Below are positions 7,174 through 26,117 of a stretch of 64,000 nucleotides of DNA, in pieces (position 1 is the stretch's first letter; every line of letters begins with the position of its first letter). The stretch lies in NCBI GenBank assembly GCA_029066845.1, contig JAIEFR010000004.1, forward strand, positions 14,241 to 78,240. Reading direction: 5' to 3'. Below the pieces are notes generated by a model that saw only the letters and a list, made by a program, of their open reading frames with translations, made no database searches and was not told the origin of the DNA. The position numbers and the translations under genes are program-made. The DNA is from Clostridia bacterium. Its GTDB lineage: Bacteria > Bacillota > Clostridia > Christensenellales > Borkfalkiaceae.

Positions 7174-7246
7174 TTTTGCAAAATAACTTGCCACGCGGCG
7201 GTGTAAAGTTGTATAATACTTACGAATAAACGTCAGGAGAAATATT

Positions 7247-8419
7247 ATGAATTACAGAGAGGAATCGCTTAAAAAACACGCCGAGTGGAAGGGCAAAATA
7301 GAAATCGTGCCCAGGGTGGAGGTCGATAGCAGGGAAAAGCTTTCGCTTGCCTACACGCCGGGTGTTGCCGAGCCCTGCCTTGCCATACAGAGGGACCCCG
7401 AAAAGAGCTTTACGCTGACCAGAAGATGGAACACCGTGCCCGTTATCACAGACGGCACTGCAATTCTCGGTCTGGGCGATATAGGACCCGAAGCGGGTAT
7501 GCCCGTTATGGAGGGCAAGTGCGCTCTGTTCAAGGCGTTCGGCGACGTGGACGCGTACCCTCTGTGTATCCGTTCCAAGGACACCGAGGAAATTATAAAG
7601 ACCATAAAGCTGCTTGCGGGCAGCTTCGGCGGAATTAACCTTGAGGACATTTCCGCGCCCCGCTGCTTCGAGATAGAAACCAGGCTGAAAGAGGAGCTGG
7701 ATATTCCCGTTTTCCACGACGACCAGCACGGCACCGCAATAGTAGTTGCGGCTGCGCTCATCAACGCTTTGAAGCTTGCGGATAAGAAAATGGAAGATAT
7801 AAAGGTGGTAATCAACGGCGCGGGTGCGGCGGGCATTTCCATTGCGAAATTCTTGTTGCGCTTCGGCGTTAAAAACGTTATTGCGTGCGACAAGCTGGGC
7901 GTTATCAGCGAGGGGGACGAGAGGTTCAACCACGCCCAGCAGGAGCTTGCAAAGGTCACCAACCGCCAAAAGCTTACGGGCACGCTTGCGGACGCAATGG
8001 TTGGCGCGGACGTGTTTATCGGCGTTTCGGCGGCAAATTGCGTAACCAAGGATATGGTGCGTTCTATGGCTGAAAAGCCCGTGCTCTTCACGCTTGCAAA
8101 CCCCGTGCCCGAAATTTCGGTTGCGGACGCAAAGGAGGCGGGCGCGTTCATTCACGGCACAGGCTCCTCGGAATATCCCAATCAGATAAACAACGTTCTG
8201 GTTTTCCCGGGGTTGTTCCGCGGCGCGTTGGACGTGCGTGCGACGACTATTACTTTCGAGATGATGATGGCGGCTTCGCGCGGCATTGCGGGTTGCGTGT
8301 CGGATAAGGAGCTGAGCCGCGACTATATTCTGCCCTACGCTTTCGATAAGCGCGCGCACGAGGCGGTTGCCAAAGCGGTTGCGGAGGAAGCGGTCAAGTC
8401 GGGCGTGGTAAGAAAATAA
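7247..8419 (+). CDS. NAD(P)-dependent malic enzyme (malate dehydrogenase, oxaloacetate-decarboxylating)
   Basis: SLAYTPGVAEPCLAI, FHDDQHGTAIVVAAALINALK, VINGAGAAGISIAKFLL, ALDVRA. Confidence 0.95.
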   Translation: MNYREESLKKHAEWKGKIEIVPRVEVDSREKLSLAYTPGVAEPCLAIQRDPEKSFTLTRRWNTVPVITDGTAILGLGDIGPEAGMPVMEGKCALFKAFGDVDAYPLCIRSKDTEEIIKTIKLLAGSFGGINLEDISAPRCFEIETRLKEELDIPVFHDDQHGTAIVVAAALINALKLADKKMEDIKVVINGAGAAGISIAKFLLRFGVKNVIACDKLGVISEGDERFNHAQQELAKVTNRQKLTGTLADAMVGADVFIGVSAANCVTKDMVRSMAEKPVLFTLANPVPEISVADAKEAGAFIHGTGSSEYPNQINNVLVFPGLFRGALDVRATTITFEMMMAASRGIAGCVSDKELSRDYILPYAFDKRAHEAVAKAVAEEAVKSGVVRK

Positions 8420-14479: not shown

Positions 14480-15337
14480 ATGAATAGAGAAGAGATAATA
14501 AGCCGCATCGCGCGGATTGACAGGGAATTGAAGAGCCGTAAGGAGGATACGGGCGCGCTTGCCGCATACAACTCGGGCAGGAAAAAGCACAAAAAACAGA
14601 TGGCGTTCCACAGGTGCAAAAAGCGCAACCGCTGGGTGTTTGGGGGCAACCGTTCGGGAAAGACCGAGTGCGGCGCGGTGGAGGCAATCTGGATGCTTAG
14701 GGGAATACACCCCTACCGCAAAAACAGAAAGGACGTCTTCGGATGGGCGGTTTCGCTTTCGCAGCAGGTGCAGCGCGACGTTGCACAGAGCAAGATTTTA
14801 AAGTACCTGCCAAAGAGCTGGATAGCCGAAATTACTATGCTTTCGGGCAGAAAGGATTCGCCCTCTTCGGGCATAATCGATCAGATAAAAATCAAAAACG
14901 TTTTCGGCGGAATATCCACGCTGGGCTTTAAAAGCTGCGACCAGGGAAGGGAAAAATTTCAGGGTTGTTCGCTCGATTTCGTGTGGCTGGACGAGGAGCC
15001 GCCCAAGGATATATACGAGGAATGTCTTATGCGCGTTATGGATAAGCGCGGGGATATTTTCGGCACTATGACGCCCCTCAAAGGCGAAACCTTTATATAC
15101 AACGAGATATATCTCAACCGCCGCAACAATCCGCAGGTGTGGTGCGAGTTTATGAGCTGGGAGGACAACCCATATTTAAAAAAGAGCGAGATAAAGCTGC
15201 TGTCGCAGTCAATGGATTCGTCCTCACTCGACAGCAGGCGGTACGGCAAATTTTCGCGCGGGGCGGGACTGGTCTATCCCGAGTTCGACAGCGCGGTGCA
15301 CGTCATTCCGCCCATTGTACGAGCCATAAAAGTCTAA
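14480..15337 (+). pseudogene. Truncated phage terminase large subunit (ATPase part)
   Basis: WVFGGNRSGKTECGAVEAIWML Walker A; CSLDFVWLDEEPPKDIYEECLMRV Walker B; TPLKGETFIYNEIY; homology-like text ends at FDSAVHVIPP then IVRAIKV-stop, where AT-rich sequence begins. Confidence 0.8.
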
Positions 15338-15528
15338 CCCTAAATACGGCTAAAATAGGGCAAAAATGCCCTAAAATGGGGCATATATGGGGGTTTAGAC
15401 TTTTCATAGGAACAAGGATAAACACTCACTGCCACAAAGGATAGAACCCTAAATGGGGGTTAGAGTTGAAAGTGTATTCTATGAAAAGTCTAAATTTTGG
15501 GCTTTTCCGACCTATGAAAAGTCTAAAT
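15324..15528. repeat. Left-end cluster of the element repeat: 15324-15337, 15394-15410 (inverted), 15479-15494, 15511-15528
   Basis: ccataaaagtctaa; tttagacttttcatagg; ctatgaaaagtctaaa; cctatgaaaagtctaaat. Confidence 0.85.
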
Positions 15529-15849
15529 ATAGTTCTAAAAGCATTTTAGAAACGATAAAAATGCGCTAAAATTTTATGCGCAATCAAAGCCATATTAGGA
15601 CAAAAGAAGGATATAGAAATTCTAATTGGACAGAAAAACAATCACTCTCCCAGTTGTGGCGAGGAGTGGACTCATGCACATAAACAGCTTGTTTGCGTCA
15701 CCTGTCGGCACTCACGAGGCAATATTTAACTTCTATCCCTGTAAGTATCATTTTATTTTTTCGATAAAAAGTTATTTATATGTATTAAAATATTGACTTC
15801 ACAATACTAAAATGGTATAATGAAAATATATTTACAAGGAGTATTGGAT

Positions 15850-16056
15850 ATGGCTTTCTCTTATAAACCGCTTTGGAAGTTGCTCATAGATAAAGATATG
15901 AACAAAAAGGCTTTGATGAGCGCAACGGGAATATCGAAATCCACTATTGACAAAATGGGTAGAGGTGAAATTGTATCTCTCGAAATTATAGATAGGATTT
16001 GTAACTATTTTCATTGCAAAGTAGAAGATGTACTTGAGCATATTCCTAATGTTTAA
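15850..16056 (+). CDS. XRE/Cro-type HTH regulator
   Basis: MAFSYKPLWKLLIDKDMNKKALMSATGISKSTIDKMGRGEIVSLEIIDRICNYFHCKVEDVLEHIPN; aaggag SD. Confidence 0.88.
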   Translation: MAFSYKPLWKLLIDKDMNKKALMSATGISKSTIDKMGRGEIVSLEIIDRICNYFHCKVEDVLEHIPNV

Positions 16057-16087
16057 CCTTTAATCATATCAATTACGGAGACTCACC

Positions 16088-17692
16088 ATGAAAAAATATA
16101 AAGTCATAGATCTGTTTGCCGGAGCTGGAGGCTTAAGCTATGGTTTCGCTCAAACAGATAGATTTCTAATTGTTGCTGCGGCAGAAATTAATGAAAATGC
16201 AAGAAATACATACAAAAGAAATATTGCTCGCAATACACCCAACTTTCTATTTATTAAAAATGTCATAGGGTGCGACTTCGCAACAATCAGTCAGGAGTTG
16301 GGTGGAATTGATATCGTTATAGGAGGTCCGCCTTGCCAAGGATTTTCGAACGCAAATAGACAAAAAAATAATATCATCAGTTTAAATAATGGTCTTGTAA
16401 AAGAATATTTTAGAGCTATTAAACAAATTCGCCCTCTTGCTTTCGTAATGGAAAATGTTAGCATGTTGCGTTCTGATGTACATAGATTTTATGAATCCCA
16501 TAAAGACAATGCTGAAATTGAAGAGCTTATTTGCCAAGGGCATAATATACCTAAAAGACTTGACTCGATTGTAGTCGCAGACAGTTCATTTGATGGCATA
16601 GATTATGAGCATGCAGATATCATTCCTGTCAATGATTATATTTTTCCGCAAAACTTGCTTCAATTGCTTTCCGTCTTGCTCAAAAATATAAATAATCCAC
16701 GCCGACTGCCCAACTATATTAAGAAAAACAAAAAAGCTATCATCGCCAATATTGATAGTTTTACTCAAAACATTGCGGCACCTACTACTGCGCAGCAAAA
16801 CATAATTAATAAATTAGTAGTAATAAAAAATGCAATCGATTCTAACGAGATTGCTCCATGCGAGGACGACCTAAAATCTGTAATAAAGTTACAAAAGGCA
16901 CTGGCTACTATTATTGAAATAAAGCAGAATGAACTCATAGGAACATACCGTCTAATGGATTCTGGCATATTATATTTCGATGTAAATTCTTATTCGGTAA
17001 TTGATTATATCAATGCTATATTAGGTGACGAGTATACGCAGAACGGAGATGTTATTCATGCCGAATGGTTTGGTGTGCCGCAAGAACGCCGAAGATACAT
17101 AATTATTGGTTTAAGGAATGACTTGTTTAAGAAAGATAAAGTATCACTGCCTACTTCACCTCAAAAGACGCATATATTTACTGTAGGCGATGCTATATCG
17201 GATTTAGAGAAGTATACTGCATGTTATGATATAGAACATTCTCCAATTCCTTACACAAATGAAGAGACATTATCAGAATATGCAATTGCAATGAGACAGG
17301 GTAGTGACGGCGTCAATAATCACATAACAACAAAAACAACCCAAACTGCACTTGATAGATTTAAATCAATAAAGCAAGGAGATAATTTCCACAGTTTAGA
17401 TACGGATTTGAAAAGTACGTATTCGAAGCCCGAACGAACACAAAACACAATATATTTACGTCTCGATCCGACCAAACCAAGCGGCACAGTTGTAAATGTA
17501 AGAAAGTCGATGTGGATTCATCCAACATTAGATAGAGCCATAACCGTTCGAGAAGCTGCAAGACTTCAATCCTTCCCCGATGCATTCGTATTCGTTGGCT
17601 CAAAAGATTCGCAATATCAGCAAGTTGGTAACGCCGTCCCTCCGTTACTTGCCAGAGCAATTGCAGAAAAAGTTCTTGAAAATATTGAGTAA
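16088..17692 (+). CDS. DNA (cytosine-5) methyltransferase
   Basis: VIDLFAGAGGLSYGF (I), GGPPCQGFSNANRQ (IV), MENVSM (VI), QERRRYIIIG (VIII), QQVGNAVPPLLARAI (X). Confidence 0.96.
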   Translation: MKKYKVIDLFAGAGGLSYGFAQTDRFLIVAAAEINENARNTYKRNIARNTPNFLFIKNVIGCDFATISQELGGIDIVIGGPPCQGFSNANRQKNNIISLNNGLVKEYFRAIKQIRPLAFVMENVSMLRSDVHRFYESHKDNAEIEELICQGHNIPKRLDSIVVADSSFDGIDYEHADIIPVNDYIFPQNLLQLLSVLLKNINNPRRLPNYIKKNKKAIIANIDSFTQNIAAPTTAQQNIINKLVVIKNAIDSNEIAPCEDDLKSVIKLQKALATIIEIKQNELIGTYRLMDSGILYFDVNSYSVIDYINAILGDEYTQNGDVIHAEWFGVPQERRRYIIIGLRNDLFKKDKVSLPTSPQKTHIFTVGDAISDLEKYTACYDIEHSPIPYTNEETLSEYAIAMRQGSDGVNNHITTKTTQTALDRFKSIKQGDNFHSLDTDLKSTYSKPERTQNTIYLRLDPTKPSGTVVNVRKSMWIHPTLDRAITVREAARLQSFPDAFVFVGSKDSQYQQVGNAVPPLLARAIAEKVLENIE

Positions 17693-17726
17693 TATTTTGT
17701 AAATATAATTCAATATCCCAATATAT

Positions 17727-17768
17727 GCTTGCAAATATTTTCCGTATTTTGCAGGCATTTTTTATATT
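17727..17768 (+). terminator. Intrinsic terminator after methyltransferase
   Basis: atgcttgcaaatattttccgtattttgcaggcat + tttttat. Confidence 0.65.
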
Positions 17769-17846
17769 TCTAATACTATACTGTGATAATATTTTGTAAA
17801 TATTATGTAAAATATGAAAAATATTGTAAAATATATTGCAAAACTA

Positions 17847-17876
17847 TTGACAGACATAATGTCGGTCTGATATAAT
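17847..17876 (+). promoter_or_regulatory. Promoter with palindromic operator in the spacer
   Basis: TTGACA - 18 nt - TATAAT; spacer begins with perfect palindrome gacataatgtc. Confidence 0.7.
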
Positions 17877-17906
17877 ATTTTCAAAAATATTGCGAGAGGT
17901 AATTTT

Positions 17907-18134
17907 ATGGAAACAAAACGTGAGAAATTTGTGCGCCTTGCCGAAGCTCGTACCAATAAGATTATTGATATGTTGCAACTACTTGGAAATTGTTCTAACT
18001 CGAGTGCGTACGATTACACACAACAGGATGTTGAAAAAATATTTTCTGCAATAGAACAAGAAATGCGTGAGGCAAAGAAGAAATTTAGCAAAATCGAAAG
18101 CAAAAAAAGCACTCGTTTTACCTTGGATAAATAA
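17907..18134 (+). CDS. 75-aa protein of unknown function
   Basis: gagaggtaatttt SD then METKREKFVRLAEARTNKIIDMLQLLGNCSNSSAYDYTQQDVEKIFSAIEQEMREAKKKF; stop overlaps region of next gene. Confidence 0.75.
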   Translation: METKREKFVRLAEARTNKIIDMLQLLGNCSNSSAYDYTQQDVEKIFSAIEQEMREAKKKFSKIESKKSTRFTLDK

Positions 18135-18148
18135 TGGAGGAACCGTTT

Positions 18149-20452
18149 ATGAAATCACTGATGCCGATACCTCAAAATTTTAGGAATAACGTTGACTGGA
18201 TTTTAGGTGCATATACCGATGCAGATGTTACGTTCCCTAATGGTTTTCAAAAGGATGCAATTCAAAATGCTGTAGGGGCGCGTAAATATAACAAGTGGAC
18301 AAATTGGTCGTGTGATATTTCCGTAACTGAAACACCATATGGACAATATGTTGTTGTTGAAGATTGTGGCACAGTAGGTTTAACGGGTAAAAATGCTCCT
18401 GGAACGGAAGTTAACGAGATGATGGCGCGCGGAGAAGTTCTGTCGCCTACTGAAAGATTGTCTCGTTTTACTTCTATGTTTAACTCTGGCGGCAATACCA
18501 CCGGAGGCGGATTATTTGGTGCGGGTAAAAGTGTGTATTCTGTTGCATCTACAGACTATACTTACTATTTCGACTCACTTCGTGAAGATGGAATTTATGT
18601 AGCAAATGTCAATAACAACGGACAAGTGTATCCTCTCGCTTTTGAGGGCGATGAAGCCGCAAAATTCATTCTTAGTGAAACTGGCTTATCTCCCAAAAAC
18701 TCAATTGGCACACGTGTCATTATAAAATCTCCCAAAACTGAGCTTGTCGAATCTATTAAATCCGGCGAGATAATACCTTTTATTCAAGAATCTTGGTGGC
18801 GTATCATCCAGCGACTTGGAACAGGGTCGCATATTTCTGTTAACGGGATCCCCGTTGATGTTCCCCAAGATGTGACGAATGGTACTCATAATTTTGAGCT
18901 GTCCTCGCCCGAAACCTATATAGGTATCTATAAGGTGAAGCATTTCGGTTTTTATGTTTTCAAAAACGGCGGCAATCAGTGGAGCGGTCTCTCATATTAT
19001 CGCAAGGGCATGAAAATTGGGGAGATAGAACTGAATGATATCCCAGAAAAAGTTAAAGGTAAATTTTGGGGATATATTGAGGTTGATGAAGTATGGGAAA
19101 CCGAACTTGCCGATATTGAAGACAAGGTTCATTTTGGTGTTAGCAAAGGAAAAAGAAAAACAACCACCTATCAAAACCTTAAGAAATATTGCAATACGAA
19201 GGTACGTGCACTTCTTGTAGATTGGGGATTTATAAAAGATAAAGAAAGCGAGGATAAAAAGCTAAGGGACAAGCTTCAACAAATTGCAGAAGATATCCAA
19301 GATTTGTTTGACAAACTCGGTTTCGAAGATCTGGGCAAAGGTCCTCAACGTGCGGATTTTGATGTGCGTTGGCAAAATATCCAATATCCCACTCCTAATT
19401 CGGAACGAGTTTCTTCAGGCGATCAAATAAAATTTGCAGTCCGTATCAAGAGTTCATATATTACCGATAAAAGATTCGAATATAGATTGTATATAGAAAA
19501 TCCGCAGAATGGCAATGTTGTACATACCCTGAGCAACAAAAAATTTACTATAAATGCTAACTCGATTTACACCGAGGATTTTTCGTTCGAAGTCGATGAG
19601 ACAAATTCTGTTCGGTATTCCGAAAATAGAATTAAGTTAGTTGTAAAAGTAATTGGTAGCGGAAAGGAAAAACATAAAGAGCTGTCATATTTCTACGACA
19701 TAGATAAACCTAACAATACCAGAGAAACGATTAGTCTCGTTTTACATGAATGTATTTTTCCACGCCAAGGACAGCGTCGTGTAAATTTTGGTGAAAGTTT
19801 GCAGAACTTGTCATATCGCATAGAGAATAAACGAAATCATGTTTTTAACTATAGACTTAATATCAGCGTCCATAATGCGAGTGATCCTACTTGCCCGAGA
19901 ATTGCTGATGTAGCATACTTCACTGGAATTATTAATCCTTTTGAGGAAGTCATATCCCATGTAATCGACAAAATTGAATTCCCAGAGAATATTTATGCAC
20001 AGTATCTATCTGAAGGCGTACTGGAATTACGTGCACGCCTTATCGCTAATGAAGATGACGATGAATACGAAAAGGGTGATAGAATTACAGCGTATTTCTT
20101 TAAAATATTCTTGAACTGCGATGAGAAGAATGGCAAAAATGATGCTTTTGAAATTAAAAGTGTAGATGCCCCTAATGACTATAGACGATCATGGAACACT
20201 CCCGGAACGGGACGGAGTATTTTTGTCAATGTGGGACACGCTGCATACTTAAGCCTTCAAGAATATCCAGAAGTACAAACCGAATATCTGAGAGAACAGA
20301 TGCTCAAACAATATGTTCTTCTTTATCTTTCGGAAGGACGTTATGATATGTTTGGCGCGGCAGGAGCCGAATTCGCAGAGTTAGAACCGCAGGAAGCTGC
20401 CCCGCGTGTCATCGACAAAATCGAATCGGTCTATTATTCAAGTTTAAAGTGA
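18149..20452 (+). CDS. GHKL (Hsp90/MutL/MORC-type Bergerat fold) ATPase-domain protein, 767 aa
   Basis: N-box GFQKDAIQNAVGAR; G1 VVEDCGTVGLTG; G2 GGGLFGAGKSVYS; NSIGTRVIIK; GGAGG SD before ATG 18149. Confidence 0.8.
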   Translation: MKSLMPIPQNFRNNVDWILGAYTDADVTFPNGFQKDAIQNAVGARKYNKWTNWSCDISVTETPYGQYVVVEDCGTVGLTGKNAPGTEVNEMMARGEVLSPTERLSRFTSMFNSGGNTTGGGLFGAGKSVYSVASTDYTYYFDSLREDGIYVANVNNNGQVYPLAFEGDEAAKFILSETGLSPKNSIGTRVIIKSPKTELVESIKSGEIIPFIQESWWRIIQRLGTGSHISVNGIPVDVPQDVTNGTHNFELSSPETYIGIYKVKHFGFYVFKNGGNQWSGLSYYRKGMKIGEIELNDIPEKVKGKFWGYIEVDEVWETELADIEDKVHFGVSKGKRKTTTYQNLKKYCNTKVRALLVDWGFIKDKESEDKKLRDKLQQIAEDIQDLFDKLGFEDLGKGPQRADFDVRWQNIQYPTPNSERVSSGDQIKFAVRIKSSYITDKRFEYRLYIENPQNGNVVHTLSNKKFTINANSIYTEDFSFEVDETNSVRYSENRIKLVVKVIGSGKEKHKELSYFYDIDKPNNTRETISLVLHECIFPRQGQRRVNFGESLQNLSYRIENKRNHVFNYRLNISVHNASDPTCPRIADVAYFTGIINPFEEVISHVIDKIEFPENIYAQYLSEGVLELRARLIANEDDDEYEKGDRITAYFFKIFLNCDEKNGKNDAFEIKSVDAPNDYRRSWNTPGTGRSIFVNVGHAAYLSLQEYPEVQTEYLREQMLKQYVLLYLSEGRYDMFGAAGAEFAELEPQEAAPRVIDKIESVYYSSLK

Positions 20453-20462
20453 GGTGCTAACT

Positions 20463-21233
20463 ATGGGACATATAGTCTCTCTTGATGCAGAAGGAAGGCT
20501 TGTATATAAAGGGCTACTATCTTCGCAAGAAAAAGCAACTGTTGACGAAATCCTTAATGCGCTCAAGTCGGAAATTCCAGAAATTGAATCTGATTTGGCA
20601 AGTGAATATGGACAAAGCGTGTGGTACAAGTATAATCTTGGTCTTTTCCTCGGCGGATTGTTAGAAAAATACCAAATAACGATTGCCGAGAGACGCCAAT
20701 TTTGGGACGAAATAAAAACTTTTGCAACCAAAGAAGAACGTAAACGCAATGAAGGAACAAATGCTGTTACACGAAGTTTTTATCAGCAGTGCTATATTCT
20801 TTCATGCCAAGATAAAGAAGTCGTAGAAAAATTAACCTGGCGCCAATGGCAAGATATTCTTGACCGTGTGGGGAATCGTGAAGACGAACGCATCTTTGTA
20901 TGGATAAAGAATCTAACAGGAAAAATCCGTGAGGACGATTGGCGAGAATTCGAGAAAGCTCTGCACCTATATTTAAAGGAAAAAGATACAAGTGTCTTTA
21001 CTGATGAGGAGTTGTTTTCAATCTATGATTCATTGTTAAAGATGTGTAAGGTATGGCGCGAACGATTTAAAGTATTTGAAGCCGAACATCCCAAATCCTT
21101 AAAAATAAAATCAAAAGGTGTTTGGGCAAAAAAGTATTATGCTTGTTGCTTTGACATTAAAAAAATACAACGGATACGGATTGTAACACAAGAAATCTGT
21201 GAGCAAGCGTTCCAAGAACTTATGGAAAAATAG
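20463..21233 (+). CDS. Protein of unknown function in the methyltransferase/GHKL operon
   Basis: MGHIVSLDAEGRLVYKGLLSSQEKATVDEILNAL...; starts 8 nt after the GHKL gene stop codon; no motif recognised. Confidence 0.75.
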   Translation: MGHIVSLDAEGRLVYKGLLSSQEKATVDEILNALKSEIPEIESDLASEYGQSVWYKYNLGLFLGGLLEKYQITIAERRQFWDEIKTFATKEERKRNEGTNAVTRSFYQQCYILSCQDKEVVEKLTWRQWQDILDRVGNREDERIFVWIKNLTGKIREDDWREFEKALHLYLKEKDTSVFTDEELFSIYDSLLKMCKVWRERFKVFEAEHPKSLKIKSKGVWAKKYYACCFDIKKIQRIRIVTQEICEQAFQELMEK

Positions 21234-21306: not shown

Positions 21307-22131
21307 ATGAAAATTGGTTTTTTTAATAAAAGACTATTAGGGAATTTCCTAAAGTGGGCATCGGCTATTTCGGTGGTTTTCACAACGGTATTGGCGTTCT
21401 TCGATTTATGCCCAAAAGTCAAATTGATTGTTTTTGGTTGCTTTTTAGGAACATTGTTATTGATATATGTCATATTACTTATTATGGCAAATGTAATGAC
21501 TCGCCTAAAATTGAAGATTAACAACTCTATAGTCAATATTCGGTTTGATGATATTTTTAACCAACCAGAGTCGGATTTGAAGGTGATAGCATTTAATGAA
21601 TACTTTGATACAAAAGTTGATGATGTTATTATTTCTAAAAATACGCTAAATGGAAAATACTTGCTACAACTTGAACAGCCGATAGAAGAATTGGATGAGT
21701 TGATTGCTAATAGTACTTATATGCAAGACCGCATAGCGGGAAAGAATTCCAAAAGGAAAGCGGGAAAAATAGTAAGGTATAAACTTGGTACAATTTATAA
21801 GAATAAAGATTATTTATTAGTGGCGTTGACGCATTTCGATGAAAACAATCGTGCGCAACTTACCCTACAACAGTATTCGGACTGTTTGATAAATATGTGG
21901 AATGAAATAGATAATCTTTACAACGGTCAAACAGTAACACTTCCACTGTTGGGTAGCGGGATAACAAGATTCAAGGACTGTCGGGATATCACGGACCAAG
22001 AGTTGTTGGAAATTATACTGTGGACTTACCGCATTAGCAAGGTTAAATTTACTTATCCTTCTTGTTTGAATATAGTTCTTGATGAAAGGAAAAAAGATAA
22101 ACTCAATTTGTATAAATTGAAAGGAGAATAA
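21307..22131 (+). CDS. Two-TM + Macro-domain effector, Type II Thoeris ThsA-like (DUF6430-like)
   Basis: MKIGFFNKRLLGNFLKWASAISVVFTTVLAFFDLCPKVKLIVFGCFLGTLLLIYVILLIM two TMs; C-terminal VTLPLLGSGITRFK Macro signature; followed by TIR-like genes. Confidence 0.8.
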   Translation: MKIGFFNKRLLGNFLKWASAISVVFTTVLAFFDLCPKVKLIVFGCFLGTLLLIYVILLIMANVMTRLKLKINNSIVNIRFDDIFNQPESDLKVIAFNEYFDTKVDDVIISKNTLNGKYLLQLEQPIEELDELIANSTYMQDRIAGKNSKRKAGKIVRYKLGTIYKNKDYLLVALTHFDENNRAQLTLQQYSDCLINMWNEIDNLYNGQTVTLPLLGSGITRFKDCRDITDQELLEIILWTYRISKVKFTYPSCLNIVLDERKKDKLNLYKLKGE

Positions 22132-22134
22132 CAA

Positions 22135-22638
22135 ATGACATATAGGACAAAAACATACATAGCGGGTGATTGGACGGGCGATAGCGATGCTATTAGTACG
22201 CTTTACAGATGGAAAAATAGTGGGTATTTAAATTTTGATTTTGTTGATGCGCATGAATTAACGCAAGCGAGGGATACAAGTTTAAATTGTAGTATTAAAA
22301 AGTCATTAAAAGAGCGTCTTGATGCATCCAAGACGTTTGTGCTTGTCGTTGGTGCAAATACTAAAGATTTAAGGGCGGGAAGCTGTTCATATTGTAACAG
22401 TTTAAATAGTTGGACAAGTACTTGCGCCAGAGGATACTCTGTTGATCGGAGAAATTACATCGATTATGAGTGTGAAAAAGCAAAAGAAGCGGGAATTAGA
22501 ATAGTTGTTTTATACAATTACTCAAACGTTTATCGTGATAAATGTCCAGATTCGCTTCGTTGTACAGGCACACATGTTGCTATGATTAGCGATGGAAGAT
22601 GGGACTACGCTTCAATTAAAAAAGCGATTGAAGGATGA
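22135..22638 (+). CDS. TIR-like ThsB-type protein (first)
   Basis: TYIAGDWTGDSDAISTLYRWKNS...FVDAHELTQARD...SIKKSLKERLDASKTFVLVVGANTK...NYIDYECEKAKEAGIRIVVLYN. Confidence 0.75.
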   Translation: MTYRTKTYIAGDWTGDSDAISTLYRWKNSGYLNFDFVDAHELTQARDTSLNCSIKKSLKERLDASKTFVLVVGANTKDLRAGSCSYCNSLNSWTSTCARGYSVDRRNYIDYECEKAKEAGIRIVVLYNYSNVYRDKCPDSLRCTGTHVAMISDGRWDYASIKKAIEG

Positions 22639-22651
22639 GGGGAAAGTAATA

Positions 22652-23281
22652 ATGAAACGCAAATGCTATATTTCGTATAAATTTGAAGATAAGCACTATA
22701 AAAAACGAATAGTAGATAAATGGGGAGGCGAAGATTTTATTGATCGTTCACAGCAAGAGATAATTGATTCGGATGATCCTGAATACATAATGCAACAGAT
22801 AAGAGAGCGTTATTTAAAGGACTCAACGGTTACTATCTTTTTAATTGGTACAAAAAGTGGTGAAAATTATAGAGATCCAGAGGATATAAGTAAAGGATAC
22901 GATAGTCAGATAATTATCCGGCGCGAAATCACATCTTCATTATATAATGGCAATGGGAATAGTAGGAGTGGTTTGCTTGGTGTGGTTCTGCCTGAAATGG
23001 AATCAAAGATTTATACGGGTAAATCAACTTGCGAATGCTGTGGAGCTACCGTAACATTTGTCAACATTAATAATGATACGGTTATTAAGGAATTTGGACA
23101 GAACTATTATTTAAAGAAGCACGCTTCATCTAAATGCACGCATTATGGTGAGGATGATAGGTATGCCGTTTTAGTGCGTTATAGTGAATTTATGTCAGAC
23201 CCTGAAAAGTATATCGAAATGGCTTTTGAAAAAAGAAGTATGCCTATCGCGCAGAATGTGAGAGTTCGTAATTTTGAATAA
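22652..23281 (+). CDS. TIR-like ThsB-type protein (second), with Cys/His-rich insert
   Basis: MKRKCYISYKFEDKHYKKRIVDKW...DSTVTIFLIGTKSGENYRD...QIIIRREITSSLYN; CECCG...HASSKCTH insert. Confidence 0.78.
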   Translation: MKRKCYISYKFEDKHYKKRIVDKWGGEDFIDRSQQEIIDSDDPEYIMQQIRERYLKDSTVTIFLIGTKSGENYRDPEDISKGYDSQIIIRREITSSLYNGNGNSRSGLLGVVLPEMESKIYTGKSTCECCGATVTFVNINNDTVIKEFGQNYYLKKHASSKCTHYGEDDRYAVLVRYSEFMSDPEKYIEMAFEKRSMPIAQNVRVRNFE

Positions 23282-23533: not shown

Positions 23534-23550
23534 TTTAGACTTCTCATAGG
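23534..23550. repeat. Right-end copy of the element repeat (inverted relative to 15324)
   Basis: tttagacttctcatagg. Confidence 0.85.
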
Positions 23551-23552
23551 TC

Positions 23553-23696
23553 AAGCGGTGGCTGGAGGACGAAGGCGGCAGAATTTTAAAGCAGGTTGCG
23601 GGCAAGGCGGCGTATTCCGCAACGCTCGTCAAGTACGCCGAGCTCATCTGCAAAAAGCCCTTTGCACAGGGCGCGGTTATACTCGATAAATCTTAA
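23553..23696 (+). pseudogene. 3' fragment of a phage morphogenesis gene
   Basis: Frame KRWLEDEGGRILKQVAGKAAYSATLVKYAELICKKPFAQGAVILDKS-stop opens directly after the island end; no start codon; host-like composition. Confidence 0.65.
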
Positions 23697-23713
23697 AGAG
23701 TAAAGGAGGCGCA

Positions 23714-24343
23714 ATGAAAGTTATAGACGTTATATGCCGCACTATGCGCCTTGTAGGCAGAAGCGACGCCGCCGACCTCATTGAGTCGGCGGCTGCCGTG
23801 AACGGTGCGGAGCAGGCGGAGGTTTACGGCGAGGAAGACGGACAGAGCGGGGCGGAAGCGCCCGTTGTTCCCGATGAGGTTAAGCGGCTTAAACGCGCCT
23901 TTCTCACCTACCTGAATGCCGTGCTGGACGAGCTTGCGCGCGGCTACTTTCCGCTGGACACCGAGGAGGAGATGAGCAGCGAAAGCGGGGTGTACGCCTT
24001 TGCTGATTTTTTAAAGGCTCCTTTGAAGATAAACCGCGTAACCGAGGCGCAAAACCCCGTTGAATGGCACATATCCCCCAACTATTTGCACACAAAGGCA
24101 AAAAAGGTGACCGTTTCATACGAATACGCACCGCCCGTTCTGGGGGAGGACGACGAGTTTTTCTACCCCGTGTTTGCGGTGGGCGAGAGGCTTGTGGAGT
24201 ACGGTATGGCGGCGGAATATTTTCTGGTTGCGGGCGACGGCACGGGCTATTCCGCGTGGGAGAGCAAGTACCGCAACGAGATTGAAAACCTGCTTTCGCG
24301 CAGCTCGGTAAAGAACCGTATTCCGCCCAGGAGGTGGATATGA
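23714..24343 (+). CDS. Phage head-tail adaptor-like protein
   Basis: Size, order and content (MKVIDVICRTMRLVGRSDAADL...LKRAFLTYLNAVLDELARGYFPLDTEEE...) fit podophage gp4-like adaptor. Confidence 0.5.
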   Translation: MKVIDVICRTMRLVGRSDAADLIESAAAVNGAEQAEVYGEEDGQSGAEAPVVPDEVKRLKRAFLTYLNAVLDELARGYFPLDTEEEMSSESGVYAFADFLKAPLKINRVTEAQNPVEWHISPNYLHTKAKKVTVSYEYAPPVLGEDDEFFYPVFAVGERLVEYGMAAEYFLVAGDGTGYSAWESKYRNEIENLLSRSSVKNRIPPRRWI

Positions 24344-25623
24344 TAGCGCACGCCCGCAACTCGTTCGGCGGGCTGAAAACGCAGACGCAGACGACCGTGC
24401 TGATAGGCGGAAACGAAAGCTTCTGCGCTGAACGCTTCGGGTACAAAATGACTGAAAAGGGCTTGGAACCGGGGCTTGTTCCCGTCGAGGTGGAGCCCGT
24501 TGCGAAGATTGCAAATCTGGTTTACGCGGAGTATTTCTACGCGCTCGGCTTCACCGCCTTCGTCACTGAATACGGAGCGGTAACGCGTTGGAATTCAACC
24601 GATTACGCCAGTCTTAAGACGGCGGCGATAGTCAATCCCAACCCGCCTTTCGTGGTGGCCTGCGCGGACGGCGACGAGCCTACTTACGCGGTCATCGGGG
24701 GCACCAAGATTGCCATATTCAAGGGCGCGGCGGTCAGCACGCACACCCTGCCTTACAGAATGCTCGGCGGCACTTATCACTGCGGCAGAATTTTCGCCGT
24801 GGACAAGGACGACCCCTACGTTATCAGGTGGTCGGGCTTCGAACTGCGCGACTGGTCGCTTGCAATTGACGCGGGTGGTCATATGCGCATAAGTCCCAGG
24901 GGCGGCAAGGCGCTGTGCATAGTCGAGCTGGGCGAAAAGCTGATTGTCGTCAGGGAGAGGGCGCTCACCGTTCTCAATGCTCTGGCGGACGCGCGCCATT
25001 TCCGTCTTGTGCAGTACGGCAGCGTTGTATTGCCCGCGGTAAAGGACAAGACTGCCGTGGTTGTCGGCGGCAAGCTGTGGCTGTGTGCGGCGGACGGTTT
25101 GTACGTTTACGACGGCTCCGCGCTTTCGCGTGTGGAGGTGGATACGTGCGGAAAGAGCTATTCGTTCGAAAGGACGGCGGCGTTTAAGGACAGGTATATC
25201 TACATCACCTGCACCGACGACGGCGGAGAGCGTTGTATTCTGGAGTACGACACGCTGACGGGCGCAACCGTAAACTTTGCAAAGGGCGGCAATATGCCGT
25301 TCGGCGCGGGCGAAGACTTATACTGCCTTGCAGGCGAAAGGGGCACTACGCTCAGTCTACTTACAGTGGGGCTGGAGGACGAAAACCGAGTGTGGACTTC
25401 GCGCAATATCGACCTCGGCACGGACCGCACCAAAACGCTCAAGTACGTCACCTTGGAGGGCGAGGGCAATTCGGAGCTTGTAATCTCCTGCGACGGGCGC
25501 ACGCGTACCGTCAACGGCAAGGGAAAGACCTATGTCGGCGAGGTGGGCGTCAACTTTACTTTCAGCATAAGGGGTACGGGCACGGTTGCACGCCTTGCCG
25601 CGGAATGGGAGGTGCGCAAATGA
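24340..25623 (+). CDS. Phage tail hub/stabilization-like beta-rich protein
   Basis: ATGA overlap with upstream; MIAHARNSFGGLKTQTQTTVLIGG...VIRWSGFELRDWSLAIDAGGHMRISPRGGKALCIVELGEKLIVVRERALTVL. Confidence 0.5.
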   Translation: MIAHARNSFGGLKTQTQTTVLIGGNESFCAERFGYKMTEKGLEPGLVPVEVEPVAKIANLVYAEYFYALGFTAFVTEYGAVTRWNSTDYASLKTAAIVNPNPPFVVACADGDEPTYAVIGGTKIAIFKGAAVSTHTLPYRMLGGTYHCGRIFAVDKDDPYVIRWSGFELRDWSLAIDAGGHMRISPRGGKALCIVELGEKLIVVRERALTVLNALADARHFRLVQYGSVVLPAVKDKTAVVVGGKLWLCAADGLYVYDGSALSRVEVDTCGKSYSFERTAAFKDRYIYITCTDDGGERCILEYDTLTGATVNFAKGGNMPFGAGEDLYCLAGERGTTLSLLTVGLEDENRVWTSRNIDLGTDRTKTLKYVTLEGEGNSELVISCDGRTRTVNGKGKTYVGEVGVNFTFSIRGTGTVARLAAEWEVRK

Positions 25624-26117
25624 CTTTCGATATTATCGTCATAAGCGAGGAGGAAGCTGAAAAGCTCGAACCCGTAAGGCTTAAGCTTTTGCGCACGGCG
25701 CAGCAGAAGAAGAACGAGCTGGAACACAAGCTGCAAGCCGAGCTTGCCGAACAGAAGCGGCTGACCTATGCCAACGGCGTGGAAAACTCGACCATATATA
25801 GCAGGGTTTCCAGGGCGCTCACGGCGGAGTACGAATACCAGGTGGAAATACTCAGGGAGCAGCTCATTTTCAATATGTCGCTCAGAGAGCCGACCAACCC
25901 CGACGAAACGGGCGGAAGCGGCAGCGACAATTCGGCGTATCTCGTGGACTACGAGCTTTCGTATCTGGAAAGGTACATCGCGGTCAGGGATTACTATATG
26001 ACTATTGAGGATCCCAACGAGCGGCTTGCGCTGTTGCGGGCGGACAAGGTCGCGCAGGATTATCTGGGCACGTACTACAATCTGCTATTCGATTATCTTT
26101 ACACGTTCACCAAATAA
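25620..26117 (+). CDS. Small coiled-coil phage-module protein, unknown
   Basis: ATGA overlap with upstream gene; KLLRTAQQKKNELEHKLQAELAEQKRL... Confidence 0.6.
   Translation: MTFDIIVISEEEAEKLEPVRLKLLRTAQQKKNELEHKLQAELAEQKRLTYANGVENSTIYSRVSRALTAEYEYQVEILREQLIFNMSLREPTNPDETGGSGSDNSAYLVDYELSYLERYIAVRDYYMTIEDPNERLALLRADKVAQDYLGTYYNLLFDYLYTFTK

Follow-up and report, generated by a model that had tools for sequence, protein, structure and literature searches.

A portable GHKL ATPase gene trio beside a C5-methyltransferase on a low-GC island of a Clostridia bacterium, probably part of a restriction-type defence locus

Genes and borders of the island

The window, as we call the whole 64,000-nucleotide stretch analysed here, from the genome of a gut-dwelling Clostridia bacterium, contains an 8.2-kb insertion at about 15.33-23.55 kb with a GC content of 34-41% (about 35%), against about 52% for the genome. 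This island holds an HTH gene and a C5-methyltransferase gene, a trio of genes encoding proteins of 75, 767 (the GHKL ATPase) and 256 amino acids, and a macro-type Thoeris system:

15328-15527, island left end with repeats: CCTATGARAAGTCTAAA at 15394-15410 (-), 15478-15494 (+) and 15511-15527 (+); AAAAGTCTAA at 15328
15793-15821, +, promoter-like site TTGACT-17-TATAAT upstream of the HTH-methyltransferase unit, 11/12 consensus match
15850-16056, +, Cro/C1-type HTH regulator, 68 aa (Pfam HTH_26, E 2.1e-19)
16088-17692, +, C5-cytosine DNA methyltransferase, 534 aa (PF00145, 1.3e-57)
17847-17876, +, promoter-like site TTGACA-18-TATAAT upstream of the trio, 12/12 match to the sigma-70 consensus
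17907-18134, +, trio gene 1, small protein of 75 aa, conserved in relatives
18149-20452, +, divergent, paraMORC2-like GHKL ATPase of 767 aa (motifs, profile comparison), residues 402-656 predicted as two beta-sandwiches
20463-21233, +, partner protein of 256 aa, all-helical in the predicted model, with homologs
21307-22131 (start at 21307 likely), +, ThsA with TM stretch and macro domain (ThsA_Macro 2.6e-55; PADLOC ThsA 1.7e-99)
22135-22638, +, TIR-like ThsB of Thoeris (profile matches)
22652-23281, +, second TIR-like ThsB of Thoeris (profile matches)
23534-23550, -, island right end, CCTATGAGAAGTCTAAA

The island interrupts a TerL-like gene, whose N-terminal part lies at 14483-15337 and stops at 15337 (Terminase_6N; 34% to phage TerL). 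On the far side, in the stretch 23551-26117, the ORFs at 23714-26117 may belong to the same phage remnant. The 17-mer CCTATGARAAGTCTAAA has four copies in the entire genome, all of them at the island's two ends; they may mark the termini of a mobile element that is non-autonomous. Within the island no recombinase could be recognised. The island is foreign-looking and carries at least two separate defence loci.

One of these is a complete TM-macro Thoeris system at 21307-23281, directly downstream of the 256-aa gene. Its ThsA has TM segments and a macro domain and is accompanied by ThsB, here in two copies, an arrangement that has been studied with the system of E. coli CFT073 (PMC11204291). 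Thoeris was not seen beside the trio in the neighbourhoods of its relatives, and we treat these genes as a second defence system that is independent of the first but on the same island. Both the Thoeris system and the island borders were absent from an earlier, first-pass annotation of this DNA.

That annotation had described the remaining five ORFs as a co-directional operon. ORF calls and translations confirm the place and strand of each, the last protein having 256 rather than 257 residues, and the five are not chance ORFs, since homologs 57-90% identical occur in the same gene order in at least 10 other genomes. The methyltransferase contains core motifs I, IV, VI, VIII, IX and X, in agreement with the first reading. 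The single operon fares less well: the 214-bp gap 5' of the 75-aa gene holds the perfect TTGACA-18-TATAAT site, with a GACATaATGTC dyad in its spacer, so the HTH-methyltransferase unit and the trio are probably not one operon. Promoter-like sites with 0-2 mismatches stand just 5' of the 75-aa gene in 12/12 loci tested; such sites are rare in shuffles at nine loci (at most 5/200) but not at L009, L014 and L017 (17-30/200). Separate promoters would let the methyltransferase be made ahead of the trio, as a restriction-modification (R-M) locus needs on entering a new cell.

None of the five genes encodes a recognisable nuclease, as had been stated, and among all island genes no restriction nuclease linked to the trio was found with Pfam, PADLOC or NCBIfam. 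Judged as a type II R-M system, the window therefore has a DNA methyltransferase (PF00145, core motifs) and lacks a linked cognate restriction endonuclease (REase).

Relatives of the trio and their changing partners

The 75-, 767- and 256-aa proteins have no family match in Pfam, NCBIfam or PADLOC, so that annotation by these libraries sees only "a methyltransferase" at such loci. A species-level contig scan identified 12 relative loci; its search patterns were near-identical short peptides, which would miss more distant relatives. Identity to the window is 60-69% for the 767-aa protein, 58-75% for the 256-aa protein and 59-88% for the 75-aa protein. The hosts are mostly gut and rumen Clostridia, together with Lachnospiraceae, Erysipelotrichaceae and two MAGs labelled proteobacterial. 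The three genes occur together, with constant order and strand, wherever the locus is intact. Whole-genome searches at the phylum, order and class levels (about 400 genomes each) returned the genome itself and one decayed remnant (G483), suggesting that the trio family is rare; one weak match in these searches, to an oligopeptidase-like protein, was spurious. Neither the 767-aa nor the 256-aa protein, used as a sequence or as an alignment, matched anything in viral contigs, phages or plasmids. One relative, L015, is a remnant: internal deletions have shortened its methyltransferase, GHKL and 256-aa genes, which lie beside an HNH_2 nuclease remnant. At L016, a second, broken copy of the 256-aa gene lies on the opposite strand upstream of the intact locus (7221-7460).

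A C5 methyltransferase is encoded within 6 kb of the GHKL gene in the window and in 10/10 relatives with enough flank, a count that leaves aside L008 and L010, both cut off by a contig end. The background is low: just 7 of 21 related genomes have such a gene, or roughly one per 3 Mb, which places the linkage far from chance even though the loci are not fully independent. The homologs are thus not solitary, and a methyltransferase near the trio in every flanked relative supports the initial proposal in so far as it saw an R-M-like defence locus with a C5 methyltransferase and a GHKL ATPase, the latter belonging to the MORC/paraMORC kind.

The methyltransferases themselves fall into at least three distinct types, 25-44% alike between groups. 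The window enzyme belongs to a type of 529-536 aa found immediately 5' of the trio in five intact relatives as well (L006, L007, L014, L016 and L017; 56-62% identical) and persisting as a fragment in L015. L009, L011 and L012 carry a type of 350-366 aa, and L013 has yet another. In the tree of the 256-aa protein, L007, which has the longer type, clusters with L011 and L012, which have the shorter one (100/100), and the 529-536-aa label requires at least three changes forced by well-supported branches. The trio has therefore stayed together while its methyltransferase partners were swapped.

Nucleases or REases are linked to the trio in six relatives, and in several they are encoded by separate genes, outside the trio proteins. 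L009 and L012 each encode a Z1 protein, Dcm and a pair of NgoFVII proteins, with an additional Vsr-like ORF in L009 (by eye); at L011 the nuclease is a FokI/AlwI-like REase; L013 combines a GIY-YIG protein with a REase similar to NgoFVII_C; L008 encodes an HNH protein, with HamA/HamB further on; and L015 carries HNH_2 at the position where the window has Thoeris. Beside the L016 trio no restriction nuclease was recognised, and a Vsr-like ORF lies 3.8 kb off (by eye). The trios of L006 and L008 are nearly identical and their downstream genes unrelated, which suggests that some neighbours may be mere island cargo and that not every one is a part. DUF6119 proteins, for which no paper describing a function was found, are encoded downstream of the trio at L014 and L017 13161-14840 and at L006 14776-16623.

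Ancestry and predicted folds of the trio proteins

The 767-aa protein contains the four GHKL motifs in order: an N-box (D36xxxN40), G1 (D72-x-G74-T-x-G77), G2 (G121xxG124xG126K, as G121LFGAGK) and G187T, with the named G, D, N and K positions invariant in 12 homologs. The first-pass annotation had listed the same four and given G1 as DxGxG; here G1 departs from that canonical form, being one residue longer. Pfam yields no HATPase match to this protein, and sequence searches of the PDB, that with the 767-aa protein included, gave no meaningful match. In hhalign, residues 1-400 of the 767-aa family score 47.4 (P 2.6e-5, 332 collinear columns) against a GHKL type from plasmid R-M loci of Arthrobacter, Priestia, Planococcus and Deinococcus; none of 120 column shuffles exceeded 25.8, and the reversed profile gave 17.4. 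The N-terminus scores 29.5 against GyrB (shuffle maximum 25.1, 60 shuffles), and MutL and Hsp90 gave no signal. Additionally, E324xxxH328 is invariant in 12/12 homologs and pairs with an E-xxx-H in the four plasmid GHKL proteins; paraMORC2 is marked by an ExxxH close to where the S5 region ends (Iyer, Abhiman & Aravind 2008, PMC2292703). From its motifs and these weak profile comparisons, we read the 767-aa protein as a divergent GHKL ATPase with ancestry in common with the plasmid R-M GHKLs, and we call it paraMORC2-like on the strength of the hhalign result and of ExxxH as the published description gives it. MORC proper was rejected since its S5 motif, GhXhhpXXRhl, is absent from 12/12 homologs. 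Shedu type I-D (paraMORC3) was likewise set aside, there being no DUF4263 Pfam match and the C-terminus modelling as a tandem beta-sandwich, and a weak PADLOC match to PDC-M14B was rejected as one short stretch.

The existence of MORC-like ATPases linked to R-M genes was predicted in 2008 (PMC2292703). The trio shares with paraMORC2 and the R-M-linked MORC/paraMORC proteins described there the N-terminal GHKL motifs, ExxxH after the ATPase region, mostly Gram-positive hosts, and a neighbourhood of C5 methyltransferases with, in part of the loci, Vsr-like and diverse nuclease genes. Unlike paraMORC2, the 767-aa protein is much diverged, to the point of having no Pfam HATPase match, and is fused to tandem beta-sandwiches, while the trio adds the fixed 75-aa and 256-aa partner genes. 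The R-M neighbourhood of paraMORC2 comprises a methyltransferase, Vsr, a nuclease and an SFII helicase; among the trio loci, the only helicase-like gene is Z1 in L009 and L012, and several relatives have a nuclease, whereas the window has the methyltransferase only. In VcSduA (Shedu type I-D / paraMORC3), which has an anti-phage role, the GHKL ATPase is proposed to control the nuclease (PMC12137116); that protein carries its own DUF4263 nuclease where the 767-aa protein has beta-sandwiches. R-M-linked paraMORC is thus known as a kind; in the literature and family libraries searched, neither the trio nor its portability seems to have been described. The trio adjoins NgoFVII, Z1 and Dcm genes in L009 and L012, loci that we take to resemble ATP-dependent type II systems with an NgoFVII-type PLD nuclease; none of these genes is in the window.

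The link to plasmid GHKL proteins was reached through the 75-aa protein, whose distant homologs on plasmids precede large GHKL-motif proteins. In Ensifer, Arthrobacter, Priestia, Planococcus, Deinococcus, Dinoroseobacter, Agrobacterium and Rhizobium, such a homolog immediately precedes a large protein that carries no annotation and whose GHKL motifs were recognised by eye; these GHKL proteins are of at least three dissimilar types. The Arthrobacter, Priestia, Planococcus and Deinococcus type adjoins Dcm and, variously, Vsr, a type II REase or MutH/Sau3AI genes. Searching with the Priestia GHKL protein, independently of the 75-aa gene, added Paenarthrobacter, where the 75-aa gene is present, and Lactococcus and Ligilactobacillus, where it is undetected. 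These seven plasmid sets, in the order GHKL, about 285 aa, DUF6339, resemble the trio in their homologous GHKL region, in the 75-aa gene upstream in 5/7, and in nearby Dcm, Vsr, AlwI-type or MutH/Sau3AI genes. By profile comparison, the protein of about 285 aa shows no detectable homology to the beta-sandwich part, nor DUF6339 to the 256-aa protein, and the Lactococcus and Ligilactobacillus sets differ further in having other methyltransferases and no detectable 75-aa gene. The Lactococcus pS127 locus (L101 460-9587) has an AlwI REase and the GHKL, 286-aa and DUF6339 genes near AbiGI/AbiGII, together with two methyltransferase-like ORFs that have no C5 PPC motif. On Dinoroseobacter and Agrobacterium plasmids (L090 and L093), the 75-aa gene and a different GHKL-like protein gene stand beside an ATP-binding protein and a UvrD helicase, a pair that is Gabija-like by annotation; such contexts suggest that several GHKL families may have the 75-aa protein as a partner. 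On some other plasmids its gene is by itself, and family members with no GHKL gene next to them (L087, L096 and L097) point to other contexts too.

Folds were predicted with AlphaFold2 from 12-row alignments. The 256-aa model (pLDDT 86.9) is all-helical save for a short N-terminal hairpin, and searches of the PDB and of viral models with it found no full-length match, only short helical stretches (AAA lids, MCM C-termini). PRESAN matches of this family (best E 8e-5) are taken as chance similarity among helical proteins. In the 767-aa model (mean pLDDT 61.8), the ATPase lid is of low confidence, and residues 245-366, the region after GHKL where an S5 fold was sought, fall below pLDDT 50. Residues 402-656 form two beta-sandwiches, mostly at pLDDT 75-90; the first resembles Spo0M (Z 12.2, 111 residues, 2.5 A), and both together match RbmA (Z 11.4 at 6.8 A). 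As modelled, these are common folds that give no pointer to function. They filled the fold searches of the 767-aa model, including those with VIA, and the ATPase half gave no listed match. Models, fold searches and sequence searches revealed no nuclease signature in the 767-aa C-terminus or the 256-aa protein, and so lend no support to the first-pass suggestion that one of these two is the effector.

Proposed mechanism and competing readings

We favour, with somewhat better than even confidence, the reading that the five genes constitute a methylation-coupled, R-M-type defence locus with a portable ATP-driven, paraMORC2-like module as its core. The methyltransferase would mark host DNA with 5-methylcytosine. 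By analogy with MutL, MORC and GyrB, the 767-aa protein would dimerise through its N-terminal ATPase on binding ATP and close around DNA, while the beta-sandwich arms and the 256-aa helical protein may bind DNA or partners and the 75-aa protein may serve as a subunit or assembly factor. Once closed on unmarked DNA, the clamp would recruit or license a nuclease. The nucleases change from locus to locus, and none was recognised next to the trio in the window or in L016, which leaves this last step a proposal; for the window locus the nuclease might act in trans, have been lost or not be needed.

The likelihoods assigned here and below belong to readings that overlap. Another reading is decay, in which the window has lost its REase, perhaps on the arrival of Thoeris, and now only methylates, leaving the trio idle or regulatory. 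The window indeed has no linked REase, and the decayed relative L015 keeps HNH_2 where Thoeris stands in the window. However, no trio ORF is broken, all are well conserved and the promoter-like site matches the full consensus. The nuclease-free layout also recurs at L016, in a distant lineage, which points to a stable form; we consider such decay unlikely. Taking that layout at face value, the methyltransferase and trio could be complete by themselves: a GHKL dimer closed by ATP, together with its beta-sandwich and the helical partner, would trap or compact unmethylated DNA and so block replication or transcription without any cutting. Eukaryotic MORCs are thought to silence DNA, and a MORC-like ATP-driven clamp might silence or trap DNA that has no 5-methylcytosine, with the 75-aa protein as a partner common to several GHKL families. 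Both the window and L016 are arranged as HTH, methyltransferase and trio with no restriction nuclease recognised alongside, neither the 767-aa nor the 256-aa protein models as a nuclease, and the near-identical trios of L006 and L008 have differing downstream partners; yet nucleases are close by in six relatives and one could act in trans. By analogy such a clamp is conceivable, and we hold it, in both wordings, to be more doubtful than decay.

The least probable reading makes the trio an independent defence system that is merely co-resident with R-M genes on islands, the methyltransferase being functionally uncoupled. It would account for a constant trio amid varying methyltransferase types and nucleases, for the trio's own promoter-like site, and for the occurrence of the 75-aa family beside Gabija-like genes and other GHKL families. 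The C5 methyltransferase of the window and of all ten flanked relatives, set against the low background, stands against it, as do the distantly related plasmid GHKL loci, which again lie mostly beside Dcm. Returning to the methylation-coupled locus, the trio is probably a little-known portable engine of phage- or plasmid-blocking restriction systems, present here without a visible DNA-cutting enzyme.

In the literature searched, the experimental work found on R-M-linked MORC-like ATPases was confined to those fused to a nuclease (Shedu/paraMORC3, PMC12137116). A compact trio that keeps its own partners amid swapped methyltransferases and nucleases offers a clean test bed for the role of such ATPases in restriction. 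Should it prove to act with no nuclease at all, bacteria would have their own counterpart to silencing by MORC.
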